Below are positions 13,135-16,323 of a stretch of DNA of 62,570 nt, piece after piece. Every line of letters starts with the position of its first letter. The stretch's first letter is position 1. Position numbers and translations under genes: made by a program. This DNA comes from Melioribacteraceae bacterium (GTDB lineage Bacteria; Bacteroidota; Ignavibacteria; Ignavibacteriales; Melioribacteraceae): contig JAEINS010000026.1 of assembly GCA_016342755.1 (NCBI GenBank), forward strand, positions 1 to 62,570. The letters are read 5' to 3'. A model generated the notes under the pieces. That model made no database searches. It worked only from the letters and a program-made list of their open reading frames with translations, and was not told the origin of the DNA.

Positions 13135-14709
13135 ATGATTTTGTACGATAAGGTTTTTATTAATGGTAAAGTTTTTACTTGCGATAATAAAGATTCCCGG
13201 GCAGAAGCAGTTGGTGTAATAGATGGCAGGATTAGCTTTGTTGGAAACAATACTGATATAAATAAATTTATTGGAGAAAATACAGAAGTTATTGATTTAG
13301 AAAATAAACTTATGCTCCCGGGATTTATCGATTGTCATGTCCATTTTTTGGAAGGCGGATTACAATTAGGGAAAATTGATTTTACTGAGATTTATACTAA
13401 AAATGAATTTAGCCTTAAAGTTGAAAAATATATTGCGGAGAATAAAGCCGACTGGATACTTGGCGGGAATTGGGATCATCAAAAAATCAGTGAAAAAAAA
13501 TTACCGTGTAAAGAGTGGATTGATGAAATTACAGGTGATAAACCATTTTGGGCAACCAGAACAGATCTTCATATGGGGCTGGCAAACTCGGCTGCTCTAA
13601 AGTTAGCCGGTATTAACAATTCAACTTCAGATCCGGAAGGAGGATTAATTGTTCGTGATGAATTAGGAAATCCGACCGGAATGTTAAAAGATGAGGCGAT
13701 GAAACTGATTCAAAAGTTAATTCCACAACCTGAAAAACATGATTTAAAAATAGCAATGAGAAATGCGTTTTCTGAAGCAGCAAAAAACGGAGTTACAACA
13801 ATAACAGATATTTGCGATGCAAAATCAATTGAGATTTACAAAGAGTTATTGCGGGAAGAGAAATTAACATGCAGAATAAATGGTGTTTTGCCAATAGATC
13901 AGATTGAAAAAGTAGAGAAACTTAAAATCAATTCGGAAATGATTAAAGTAAATGCAGTTAAGGCATTTATAGACGGATCGATTGGATCGGAAACTGCGTG
14001 GTTTTATGAACCGTATATAAACAATCCAAATTTTTCCGGTTTACCTATGATACAATTTTCGAATGGGAAATTAAAAAAACTAGCTCTGGAAGCAGATAGA
14101 AAAGGAATGCAACTAATTATTCATGCAATTGGAGATAAAGCAATTGAAGCTCTTTTAGAAATGTATGACGAAATTATTTCTGTTAACGGAAAACGAGATA
14201 GAAGATCCAGGGTTGAACATGTTCAGCATATACAAAATAAAGAAATTGAAAAAATGCGTGAGTTGGATATAATTGCATCTGTGCAGCCGTCTCATTTAAT
14301 AGATGATGCGCCCTGGATAAAAAATGTGATATCTGAATCTGTTGTGAATTCAAGCTATAGATTTAGATCTCTAATTGATGCAGAAGTTAGAACCTGCTTT
14401 GGAAGTGACTGGACTGTTTCTTCTTTAAACCCAATTAAAGCAATTTATGCGGCAGTAAATAGAACCTATGCAAATAATGAAGTGTTTTTGGAAGATGAAA
14501 AAATAAGTGTTTTGGAGGCTGTTAGATGCAGCACAATAAATGGTGCGTATGGAAATTTCATGGAAAAATCTGCCGGATCAATTGAAATTGGCAAATTTGC
14601 TGATATGGTGGTTCTCGATCAGAACATTTTTGAAATTGAGCATGAGAAAATCATTAATACAAAAGTTATTAAAACTGTTTGCAATGGTAAAATAGTTTTC
14701 GGGAAATAA
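13135..14709 (+). CDS. Amidohydrolase family protein (YtcJ type)
   Basis: A 524-aa metal-dependent amidohydrolase. The signature DCHVHF at the end of strand 1 supplies two metal ligands. Other blocks are LQLIIHAIGDKA, RVEHVQHI and the late FGSDWTVSSLNP with the catalytic Asp. The N- and C-terminal beta sections (VFINGKVFTCD ... KFADMVVLDQN) form the usual flanking sandwich. There is no signal peptide, so it is cytosolic. The family hydrolyses N-acyl, formamide or cyclic amide bonds; the substrate cannot be named here. It has its own promoter region, divergent from the deaminase gene. No T-tailed terminator follows on this strand. Confidence 0.82.
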   Translation: MILYDKVFINGKVFTCDNKDSRAEAVGVIDGRISFVGNNTDINKFIGENTEVIDLENKLMLPGFIDCHVHFLEGGLQLGKIDFTEIYTKNEFSLKVEKYIAENKADWILGGNWDHQKISEKKLPCKEWIDEITGDKPFWATRTDLHMGLANSAALKLAGINNSTSDPEGGLIVRDELGNPTGMLKDEAMKLIQKLIPQPEKHDLKIAMRNAFSEAAKNGVTTITDICDAKSIEIYKELLREEKLTCRINGVLPIDQIEKVEKLKINSEMIKVNAVKAFIDGSIGSETAWFYEPYINNPNFSGLPMIQFSNGKLKKLALEADRKGMQLIIHAIGDKAIEALLEMYDEIISVNGKRDRRSRVEHVQHIQNKEIEKMRELDIIASVQPSHLIDDAPWIKNVISESVVNSSYRFRSLIDAEVRTCFGSDWTVSSLNPIKAIYAAVNRTYANNEVFLEDEKISVLEAVRCSTINGAYGNFMEKSAGSIEIGKFADMVVLDQNIFEIEHEKIINTKVIKTVCNGKIVFGK

Positions 14710-14719
14710 CACTGAAGAT

Positions 14720-14830
14720 AAAAAAAATGCTGCTAAGGCAGAGGGCACATCCCTAGCAGCTGGAATGATATAGAAAGGAGGGTCGAAATTTCTATATTTC
14801 GCTTAATACGTTGCGAAATCTATGCCAGAT
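14720..14830 (-). ncRNA. Candidate small regulatory RNA with anti-Shine-Dalgarno loop
   Basis: On the minus strand three hairpins follow one another. The first is ATTTCGC/GCGAAAT with a 10-nt loop (14819-14796). The second is ATATAGAAA/TTTCTATAT with a 12-nt loop TTTCGACCCTCC (14797-14768). The third is a terminator stem GCTGCTAGGG/CCTTAGCAGC (14760-14729) followed by a run of seven or more Ts. The terminator stem is fully paired only on this strand, where one step is a G-U wobble; on the plus strand it is an A-C mismatch. The CCCTCC loop is complementary to purine-rich ribosome binding sites and equals part of the 16S 3' tail. No protein frame fits. The target is unknown. Confidence 0.6.
14721..14760 (-). 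terminator. Intrinsic terminator of the candidate small RNA
   Basis: On the minus strand GCTGCTAGGG and CCTTAGCAGC pair over 10 bp with one G-U step and a 12-nt loop. A single A and then seven Ts (complement of 14721-14727) follow. No T-run lies on the plus-strand side, which fixes the orientation. Confidence 0.75.
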
Positions 14831-14836
14831 AAAAAT

Positions 14837-14866
14837 ATAATATTTAGTAATTATTAGGAATGTAAA
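14837..14866 (-). promoter_or_regulatory. Possible promoter of the candidate small RNA
   Basis: Read on the minus strand: TTTACA (complement of 14861-14866), an 18-bp spacer, and TATTAT (complement of 14837-14842). This would start transcription near 14830, just ahead of the first hairpin. The surroundings are very AT-rich, so chance matches are likely. Confidence 0.35.
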
Positions 14867-15108
14867 TTTTTGTTTAAAATTCTAAAAAATAGCGGACAAT
14901 TGTAAAATATTTTTCCTTTAACCTTAGCTGATTTACGTAAATATATATAAATCAATATTTTAAGTCGTTATATGTAAACTAAGATTTACAGAGTATTCTT
15001 TGATTTAAACGATTAAGTCATCTACTCAAAATAAATTATCAAAAAAAGACACACAATGTTGGCTAAAATTGGCCCGGATGAGGAATACGAGCATGTGGCT
15101 AAAAATGA
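14867..15108. other. Gene-free AT-rich stretch between the small RNA and the histidine kinase
   Basis: I see no convincing gene here. The part nearest the kinase (15059-15105) is locally richer in G+C, carries GGCTAAAA twice (15061 and 15097) and could be the kinase 3' untranslated end. A plus-strand 18-codon frame at 15056-15112 lacks a ribosome binding site. Confidence 0.4.
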
Positions 15109-16323
15109 TTAAGAAATGTTTTTCAATAAAATTTGAAATGTTGTACCTTCGCCAGGAACAGAATTTTTTACTACAATCTTACCTTTATGATAATCTTTAA
15201 TAATTCTTTTTGATAAACTAAGACCCAAACCCCAACCTCTTCGTTTAGTACTGTAGCCTGGTCTAAATACATCTTTTCTTCTTTTAATGTCAATTCCTTT
15301 GCCTGTATCCGAAACATCAATTTCAACGTATTTATCGTTTTGAGAAATTACGATGTCAATTTTTCCACTTTTCGATCCCATTGCATCAAGAGCGTTTTTT
15401 ATTAAATTCTCAATCACCCACTCAAACAACTCGGCGTTTAGATCGACTTCAATCTCCTTATTGCCAATAAGATTTATAGACACATTTTTACTACTTTGTG
15501 GAAGTCTTCTTTGAAAATAATTAACAACATTATCTAAAATAAAATAGAGATTTTTTTTCTTAAGTTCAGGAGTTGAACCAATTTTGGAAAATCTTTGCGC
15601 CACCTTATTTAAACGTGACAAATCACTATTAATTTCCTCAGAAATATCTAGGACTTTATCCGGATCGAGATAGCTTAATTTCAGATACTCATACCAGCCC
15701 ATTAAACTTGAAATTGGAGTTCCCAACTGATGGGCTGTTTCTTTTGCCATTCCTACCCAAATATTACTCTGCTCGGTTTTTTTTAAATAACTGAAGCTTA
15801 CATATGCAATCAAAATAAAAATTACGGCAAATATTATTTGAAAAAAAGGATAGGTTCTTAATTGCCGAACAAGATGTGACTCTCCGTAATAGATTTTGCT
15901 CAAAATTAATGTGTCCTGAAGTGTAATATCAATTGGTTCATTTAAAGATGCAAGATCATTAATTGTATTTAAAATAAACAGTTCCTGTTGTCCGGGTGTT
16001 AATGTTGAATCAATTTCAAGATTCTTAACATTGCGCTTAATAGAAGAAAATGGAACCTGACTATTTGCATTTGTCAGAATTAAGGGGAAATCGATTCTTT
16101 GAATTATATTATCTAGTAAAAATGTATAATCGCCGTCAGTGCTGGTTGAGTTTGCAACATATTTTAATCCGCGCGCATACAGCTCAACAATTTGTCTTTC
16201 TCTAACCTGAAGCTTTTCCACAAGCAGTTGTGTATATATTAAAGTTGAAACAGATATAAATATGGCAATTATAAGGAGAACTATTTTAAGGTTCATTGAT
16301 GCCGGGCCACCGGACAATTTCAT
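15109..16323 (-). CDS. Membrane sensor histidine kinase (orphan)
   Basis: A 404-aa inner-membrane histidine kinase. Two transmembrane segments (about 12-32 and 160-178) flank a ~125-residue extracytoplasmic sensor region. The dimerisation/phospho-acceptor helix has H198 in AKETAHQLGTPISSL. The ATPase domain shows an N box (ENLIKNALDAM), a G1 box (DTGKGID) and a G2 box (GWGLGLSLSKRI), all intact. The AHQLGTP form of the H box is typical of Bacteroidota-type kinases. No response regulator gene is adjacent, so its partner must lie elsewhere. The ATG at 16323 has an AAAAGGTG ribosome binding site. The sensed signal is unknown. Confidence 0.88.
   Translation of the reverse strand: MKLSGGPASMNLKIVLLIIAIFISVSTLIYTQLLVEKLQVRERQIVELYARGLKYVANSTSTDGDYTFLLDNIIQRIDFPLILTNANSQVPFSSIKRNVKNLEIDSTLTPGQQELFILNTINDLASLNEPIDITLQDTLILSKIYYGESHLVRQLRTYPFFQIIFAVIFILIAYVSFSYLKKTEQSNIWVGMAKETAHQLGTPISSLMGWYEYLKLSYLDPDKVLDISEEINSDLSRLNKVAQRFSKIGSTPELKKKNLYFILDNVVNYFQRRLPQSSKNVSINLIGNKEIEVDLNAELFEWVIENLIKNALDAMGSKSGKIDIVISQNDKYVEIDVSDTGKGIDIKRRKDVFRPGYSTKRRGWGLGLSLSKRIIKDYHKGKIVVKNSVPGEGTTFQILLKNIS

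Follow-up and report, generated by a model that had tools for sequence, protein, structure and literature searches.

A predicted sigma-54-dependent small RNA gene family with conserved anti-Shine-Dalgarno motifs in the order Ignavibacteriales

A minus-strand element of a Melioribacteraceae bacterium, situated between a histidine kinase gene and a convergent amidohydrolase gene, belongs to what is, judging from comparison of related genomes, a conserved small RNA (sRNA) gene family of the order Ignavibacteriales. It is very likely in our assessment that the family represents a transcribed sRNA gene. It is probable that the product is a sigma-54-activated, Hfq-independent, trans-acting sRNA that represses mRNAs by anti-Shine-Dalgarno (anti-SD) pairing. 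The family is carried by most of the searched genomes of the order, and its promoter class, enhancer sites and seed sequences are amenable to testing. It thereby opens a way into post-transcriptional control in a group of bacteria that is widespread and little studied.

Structure and conservation of the element

The features of the element and its neighbours are given below. Coordinates are those of the window, i.e. the whole stretch of 62,570 nt of DNA that was analysed.

13135..14709, plus strand: amidohydrolase gene (Amidohydro_3, E 8.8e-102), convergent and not part of the unit
14720..14727, minus strand: run of eight T, the terminator tail
14720..14801, minus strand: predicted small RNA of about 80 nt with +1 near 14801, from promoter spacing and terminator
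14729..14760, minus strand: covarying terminator-like hairpin, with one G-U pair present on the minus strand only
14741..14746, minus strand: GCCCTC motif in the terminator-hairpin loop, better conserved than any other short sequence in the family
14768..14797, minus strand: stem 2, 9 bp (14789-14797 with 14768-14776) and a 12-nt loop, TTTCGACCCTCC; local to this lineage
14777..14783, minus strand: ACCCTCC anti-SD tract, here within the loop of the local stem 2
14813-14819 with 14796-14802, minus strand: stem 1, 7 bp, its 5' arm in the promoter
14812..14827, minus strand: predicted sigma-54 (-24/-12) promoter TGGCATAGATTTCGCA (GG-N10-GC), score 16.7
15109..16323, minus strand: histidine kinase gene (HATPase_c, E 5e-21), upstream on the same strand

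An earlier note on this DNA described three minus-strand hairpins between the two genes, the first two with perfect stems of 7 and 9 bp, the second with CCCTCC in its 12-nt loop, and the third followed by a T-run and having a single G-U pair on the minus strand only. All of these are present in the sequence and the ending is a terminator-like hairpin, though stems 1 and 2 have two bases in common and stem 1 is only 5 bp long in the predicted fold. The proposed length of ∼110 nt is to be corrected. The start is predicted near 14801, 12 nt past the -12 C, and the RNA would therefore be about 80 nt long; the 5' arm of stem 1 would therefore fall between the -24 and -12 elements. The terminator hairpin stands as a conserved structure, whereas stem 1 overlaps the -12 promoter element and stem 2 is mostly unconserved. 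Two features had been overlooked, the sigma-54 promoter upstream and the terminator loop GCCCUC, which is more constant than CCUCC.

The three-stem fold has an energy of -26.9 kcal/mol compared with -20.3 +/- 3.4 kcal/mol for shuffled sequences (z -1.92; 8 of 200 shuffles as good), and the stems taken together are mildly better than chance. The element is above chance because it is conserved, the GCCCTC-loop hairpin and the CCTCC tract recurring in relatives. A terminator pattern scanner run on the window lists no terminator at the element; the loop is probably too long for the scanner, which accepts loops of at most 8. The window copy contains CGACCCTCC once and GCCCTC once. There is one full copy in the bacterium's own genome. 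The earlier note equated the loop sequence with part of the 16S 3' tail; 16S rRNA was sought in the same assembly and not found.

The earlier note proposed an sRNA gene on the minus strand, suggested a covariance search of relatives, and named lack of conservation as the outcome that would count against it. Conservation is what the search reveals: the model matches 128 of 164 Ignavibacteriales genomes at E <= 0.01 (94 of 109 good-quality genomes, 55 of 68 genera), which supports the proposal. The match in the window covers 14712-14797 (E 1.3e-9, 67.5 bits). In a phylum sample of 395 genomes, 38 have a match and every one is inside the order; the order and phylum searches used stricter filters, with which weak or distant copies can be missed. 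The absence from 36 of the 164 genomes may partly reflect incompleteness. The model has 85 positions, of which only those of the hairpin are paired, and it excludes the promoter. It was used because the motif is variable, the strict pattern CGACCCTCC...GTGCCCTC being found in only two of the 164 genomes.

Plain DNA similarity searches of 58 genomes yield mostly short AT-rich matches, largely noise. The best match beyond the own genome (genome G002, E 5.8e-8) is just downstream of the orthologous kinase gene, and further copies were collected with the kinase protein as bait and by reading the adjoining sequence. The layout that recurs beside the kinase is a CCTCC tract, then a GC-rich hairpin with a GCCCTC loop, then a T-rich tail. 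Among 80 named loci around kinase relatives, ten have a model match at E <= 1e-5; these are from Ignavibacterium sp. (two), Melioribacter sp., M. roseus (a member of the Ignavibacteriales), Ignavibacteriaceae (two), Ignavibacteriales, Ignavibacteria (two) and one metagenome-assembled genome labelled Bacteroidetes. The other 70, which include many short loci and come largely from other Bacteroidota, KSB1 and similar groups, though also from further Ignavibacteria, show no match at this threshold; two (L199, L225) are at chance level, with E 0.1-0.6.

The hairpin displays compensatory base changes. RNAalifold finds ten hairpin pairs in 17 aligned copies (set A1), nine of them compensatory. In 53 model-aligned copies (set A3; 50 distinct), standard pairs make up 98.4% of the pair cells and there are 117 two-sided changes compared with 44 in shuffles, a covariation that is destroyed when the partner is slid by one to three columns; the A3 alignment was fitted to the structure, and the MAFFT alignment of A1 was not. 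The C-rich seeds are retained in the aligned copies while the stem sequence changes. Within the hairpin region CCCTC is present in 114 of 126 copies; CCTCC, upstream of the hairpin, is present in 88 of 126. In 79 copies, the distance from the predicted +1 to the start of CCTCC ranges from 13 to 43 nt, and in 20 of them it is 24 nt.

Two other candidate features are not general. When stem 2 was considered as a conserved CCTCC hairpin, 8 of 77 members, the window copy among them, had such a hairpin at p<=0.05 against shuffled flanks, which is about twice chance. An anti-start-codon CAT upstream of CCCTCC was seen in one subgroup and is absent from the window copy.

The 3' tail of the copies is often TTTCCTCTTTTAAA-like (for example in loci L071, L072 and L083) and not a pure U run. 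Termination may therefore be weak in these relatives. The CCUC of the interrupted tails may add a further anti-SD tract, the third, or may make termination less efficient.

At the level of coding potential, it is highly improbable that the locus is a small peptide gene and not an RNA gene. Some members do have short frames of up to 29 aa, but no consistent small open reading frame (ORF) is found in 98 copies: the longest frame varies between 0 and 29 aa from copy to copy, and in just 48 of the 98 does it close inside the transcript. In addition, loop lengths vary and substitutions are pair-compensating.

Predicted sigma-54 promoter, upstream motifs and paralogous copies

Upstream of the family copies, the 17 aligned sequences display TGGCAC-N5-TTG, which we take to be the sigma-54 -24/-12 element. 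This element (-24/-12, GG-N10-G(C)), as expected for a sigma-54-dependent sRNA, is found at 98 of 126 distinct copies compared with 25 of 2520 shuffles; in two further controls, a single reverse strand out of 126 and a single downstream stretch out of 123 carry it. The promoter is absent from the covariance model, and its presence at these copies counts in favour of a free-standing sRNA gene. The scoring weights were chosen after the first 17 cases had been seen. In a first set, from which three of 50 loci were left out for want of CCTCC at the centre, all but one of the 47 unique upstream regions reach a score of at least 15; among the controls, so do 16 of 940 shuffles, none of 47 reverse strands and 2 of 46 downstream stretches. 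By set, the element is found in 52 of 53 A3 copies (shuffles 10 of 1060), which hold most of the first 17 cases, and in 46 of 73 copies (shuffles 15 of 1460) of a set fetched later (A4), which apparently holds one of the 17 (G026), along with named loci that possibly repeat others. With its cut-off of E <= 0.1, A4 also contains some weak matches, among them L155:5003-5072, which is probably a false one; the promoter pass of L298 looks spurious.

Of the 28 copies that lack the element, genus g18 accounts for 16 (out of its 17); genera g7, g21, g29 and g54 contribute two apiece, genomes G013, G027 and G101 one apiece, and the doubtful L155 match completes the list. A search of the 164 order genomes for the RpoN DNA-binding domain is positive in 158, and the own genome has 25 matches to the sigma-54 activator domain PF00158, 21 of them strong. 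Sigma-70 promoter-like sites also occur at the window copy, six on both strands together compared with 3.5 expected, and a sigma-70 promoter is possible there.

One activator domain match, at locus L134 (G000:C40:163738-164214), is interrupted by internal TGA and TAA codons and is possibly a decayed activator gene.

A scan for dyads in the 47 upstream regions ranked GTAA-N3-TTAC first, with 11 regions compared with 0.3 expected. The dyad GTAANNNTTAC is found upstream of 25 of the 98 copies having a sigma-54 element (these mostly include the first 47) compared with 0.1 expected. Of its 26 matches, 21 begin between -97 and -100, as in L071, L078, L088 and L261. With its fixed distance, the dyad looks like a candidate site for a sigma-54 enhancer-binding protein. 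A second motif, TTCYCA, which was picked by eye from the remaining regions after part of the data had been seen, is present in 31 of 98 upstream regions compared with 6.9 expected, 19 of them near -90. Upstream of the window copy there is neither GTAANNNTTAC nor TTCYCA.

Nine loci have two copies 199-293 nt apart, each with its own sigma-54 element. In six of these tandem loci (L274, L277, L284, L301, L302, L306) exactly one of the two copies carries GTAANNNTTAC. By eye, the other copy carries TGTCTCAAA or TGTCTTAAA in L284, L301, L302 and L306, as does one copy in L087, and these five copies are weak model matches of 24 to 40 bits. The paralogues seem to be wired to different inputs.

Copies in genus g18 form pairs or triplets spaced by about 100-115 nt (L289, L290, L292, L293, L300) or stand alone (L294-L299). 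They keep the GTGCCCTC loop, lack CCTCC, and are in several cases preceded by TTGACA. RpoN was not found in one g18 genome (G017); its relatives G119-G122 have RpoN, yet the sigma-54 element is absent except for the doubtful L298. The g18 set is a putative derived multicopy subfamily, in which the sigma-54 element would have been lost from 16 of 17 copies.

These properties raise the question of whether paralogous sRNAs across the order turn different sigma-54 activators into translation-repression signals. The copies would share promoter class and hairpin and differ in enhancers (GTAANNNTTAC on one copy, TGTCTCAAA on its neighbour), so that several stress or nutrient inputs would be brought together on, or distributed among, anti-SD repressors in hosts without detectable Hfq, and g18 would have moved to other promoters and multiplied. 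We put this forward tentatively, as a possibility we would not yet favour.

Genomic setting, target searches and proposed mode of action

Of 58 genomes searched for both kinase and sRNA, 48 have the two. In 35 of the 48, by hand count, the sRNA is 0.06-1.44 kb downstream of the kinase orthologue on the same strand, which is what would be expected if the element were no more than the end of the histidine kinase transcript, as its terminator or 3' untranslated region. This is very improbable, given that a sigma-54 element is directly upstream of 98 of the 126 copies and that 13 of the 48 copies are away from the kinase, some of which may have been split from it by contig ends. A CCTCC tract ahead of the hairpin is also unexpected for a plain terminator. 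In 50 sufficiently long loci, the nearest upstream ORF is a kinase orthologue in 29 (52-100% identical) and a member of a NadA cluster in 18, this cluster and the downstream families having been assigned by testing representatives; the upstream ORF has the same orientation as the sRNA in 31 and the opposite one in 19, which also argues against a kinase 3' end.

Downstream of the element the neighbours vary: 3-dehydroquinate synthase (18 loci), oxidoreductase (nine), deaminase (seven), glycosyl hydrolase-like protein (six) and others. A role as cis-acting leader or attenuator of the downstream gene would fit the 20 of 50 loci in which the nearest downstream ORF has the same orientation. Such a role is very improbable, as the ORF faces against the sRNA in the other 30, its families differ, and the neighbour in the window is convergent. 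Judging by its surroundings, the sRNA gene is a free-standing unit.

Pattern searches for targets of a CCCTCC-type seed, in line with the target prediction suggested in the earlier note, gave nothing above background and support no specific target set. In the own genome, GGAGGG-N3-10-ATG is found 28 times compared with 34 in a reversed control, and in the 164 genomes AGGAGGGT-N2-9-ATG is found 566 times compared with 724; neither is enriched. No recurring gene lies behind such sites among 13 frames in 30 other loci that were read, the frames being of mixed kinds. SD-like sites precede naive starts in 15 of 92 cases in named members of the order compared with 1 of 92 far upstream, and in 20 of 59 compared with 3 of 59 at own-genome loci, 28 of which were preselected for GGAGGG-ATG. 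In the window the numbers are 4 of 33 near starts and 3 of 33 far upstream, and SD use therefore appears limited.

Individual frames can still be listed. Seven frames of the own genome, each 195 aa or longer and situated directly behind GGAGGG-N-ATG (L227, L231, L233, L235, L237, L246, L251), are mixed in kind by eye and are target candidates; presumably they encode secreted nuclease-like and caspase-like proteins, Nqr/Rnf subunits, a response regulator and an ABC permease. AGGAGGGTCCATG is found in four genomes of genus g48 (G048 at L343, G085, G087 and G088). The frame that follows it in G048, which we take to be FtsZ-like, is a possible lineage-specific target.

The target searches, in which no class is enriched, bear on a different reading of the same conserved loop, namely that the GCCCUC hairpin loop is a decoy that titrates an RNA-binding protein and pairs with no mRNA. 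The loop motif is more strictly kept than CCUCC (114 compared with 88 of 126 copies), and genus g18 retains the loop in multicopy hairpins that lack CCUCC. Nevertheless, two separate anti-SD tracts, one of them mostly outside the hairpin, constitute a layout found among pairing sRNAs (PMC4132741, PMC10746234), and we regard the decoy as unlikely. The summed target control counts against an enriched target class; for this reason confidence in the sigma-54-activated anti-SD sRNA and in the divergent wiring of paralogues was lowered slightly, and that in the decoy raised slightly.

That the sRNA acts as an anti-SD repressor is fairly probable, the pairing being suggested by motif conservation, with CCTCC and the hairpin-region CCCTC both kept and predicted to be unpaired, and by parallels in other bacteria. 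Hfq (PF17209) is over the cut-off in none of the 164 genomes, with one sub-threshold match that contains stops, in a search that was positive in five of 14 known genomes. The hosts are therefore ones without detectable Hfq.

Under the anti-SD model, sigma-54 holoenzyme would initiate transcription some 12 nt past the conserved -24/-12 element, and an enhancer-binding activator, docked about 97-100 bp upstream, may fire the promoter upon a signal. The transcript would end at the covarying terminator-like hairpin about 80 nt on. Two anti-SD seeds would be exposed on it: CCCUCC towards the 5' end, where the RNA is mostly single-stranded, and GCCCUC in the loop of the terminator. Without Hfq, these seeds would pair with the G-rich ribosome-binding sites of selected mRNAs and block their translation. 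In genomes with two or more copies, the copies are apparently wired to different enhancers.

Comparison with known systems

No Rfam 15 family matches the window over its gathering threshold, and at E <= 5 the sole match in 14600-15000 is a plus-strand snoRNA (E 3, below its gathering score). Among the open-access papers listed in literature searches, none was seen to describe an sRNA of the Ignavibacteriales; two of those listed, PMC7203096 and PMC6147125, name both the genus and 'small RNA'. This agrees with the earlier note, which knew of no described counterpart in this phylum.

Several known sRNA systems offer parallels. The alpha-r14 or 'cuckoo' sRNAs of Alphaproteobacteria (e.g. NfeR1) carry CCUCCUCCC in the unpaired regions of each of three hairpins (PMC10746234, PMC7143759). 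As with the family described here, and as far as those accounts go, they have a repeated C/U-rich anti-SD motif that stays unpaired, stems that are free to change, and several copies per genome. They differ from the Ignavibacteriales family in lineage, in the placing of the motifs, with CCCUCC here lying in a 5' portion that is mostly unpaired and GCCCUC in the loop of the terminator, and in the predicted sigma-54 promoter here. The window copy does not carry CCUCCUCCC in three hairpins, and a hairpin at the first tract is not general.

The LhrC family of Listeria, in part of its published description (PMC4132741), also consists of anti-SD sRNAs with repeated C-rich motifs; the likeness drawn here is one of description, and the promoter here is of the sigma-54 type. 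In the csRNAs of Streptococcus, members of the CiaRH regulon, passages of PMC3091779 place the anti-SD motif in an unpaired region, together with a terminator, and with CAU as a possible anti-start codon in 53 of 61. One Ignavibacteriales subgroup carries CATAGCATCCCTCC, which recalls this arrangement. However, csRNA promoters are CiaR-controlled, with TTTAAG repeats as the CiaR site, and those here are of sigma-54 type, and CAT at that place is absent from the window copy.

Qrr sRNAs use Hfq. The Ignavibacteriales family has the predicted sigma-54 class in common with them, a likeness drawn by description alone, but Hfq was not found here. Qrr1 of Vibrionaceae is sigma-54-dependent, with the enhancer-binding proteins LuxO and SypG acting like an OR gate according to PMC10162802, and V. 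harveyi has five Qrr copies, as stated in a passage of PMC8043402. In Campylobacter, the RpoN-dependent CJnc230 (FlmE) has a putative anti-SD motif in a 12-nt single-stranded stretch; in the portion of that account drawn on here (PMC11187230), it is cut from a flgE co-transcript and its motif is CCUU, whereas the Ignavibacteriales sRNA has its own predicted promoter. Set beside these systems, the family possibly represents a further independent origin of anti-SD repressors.
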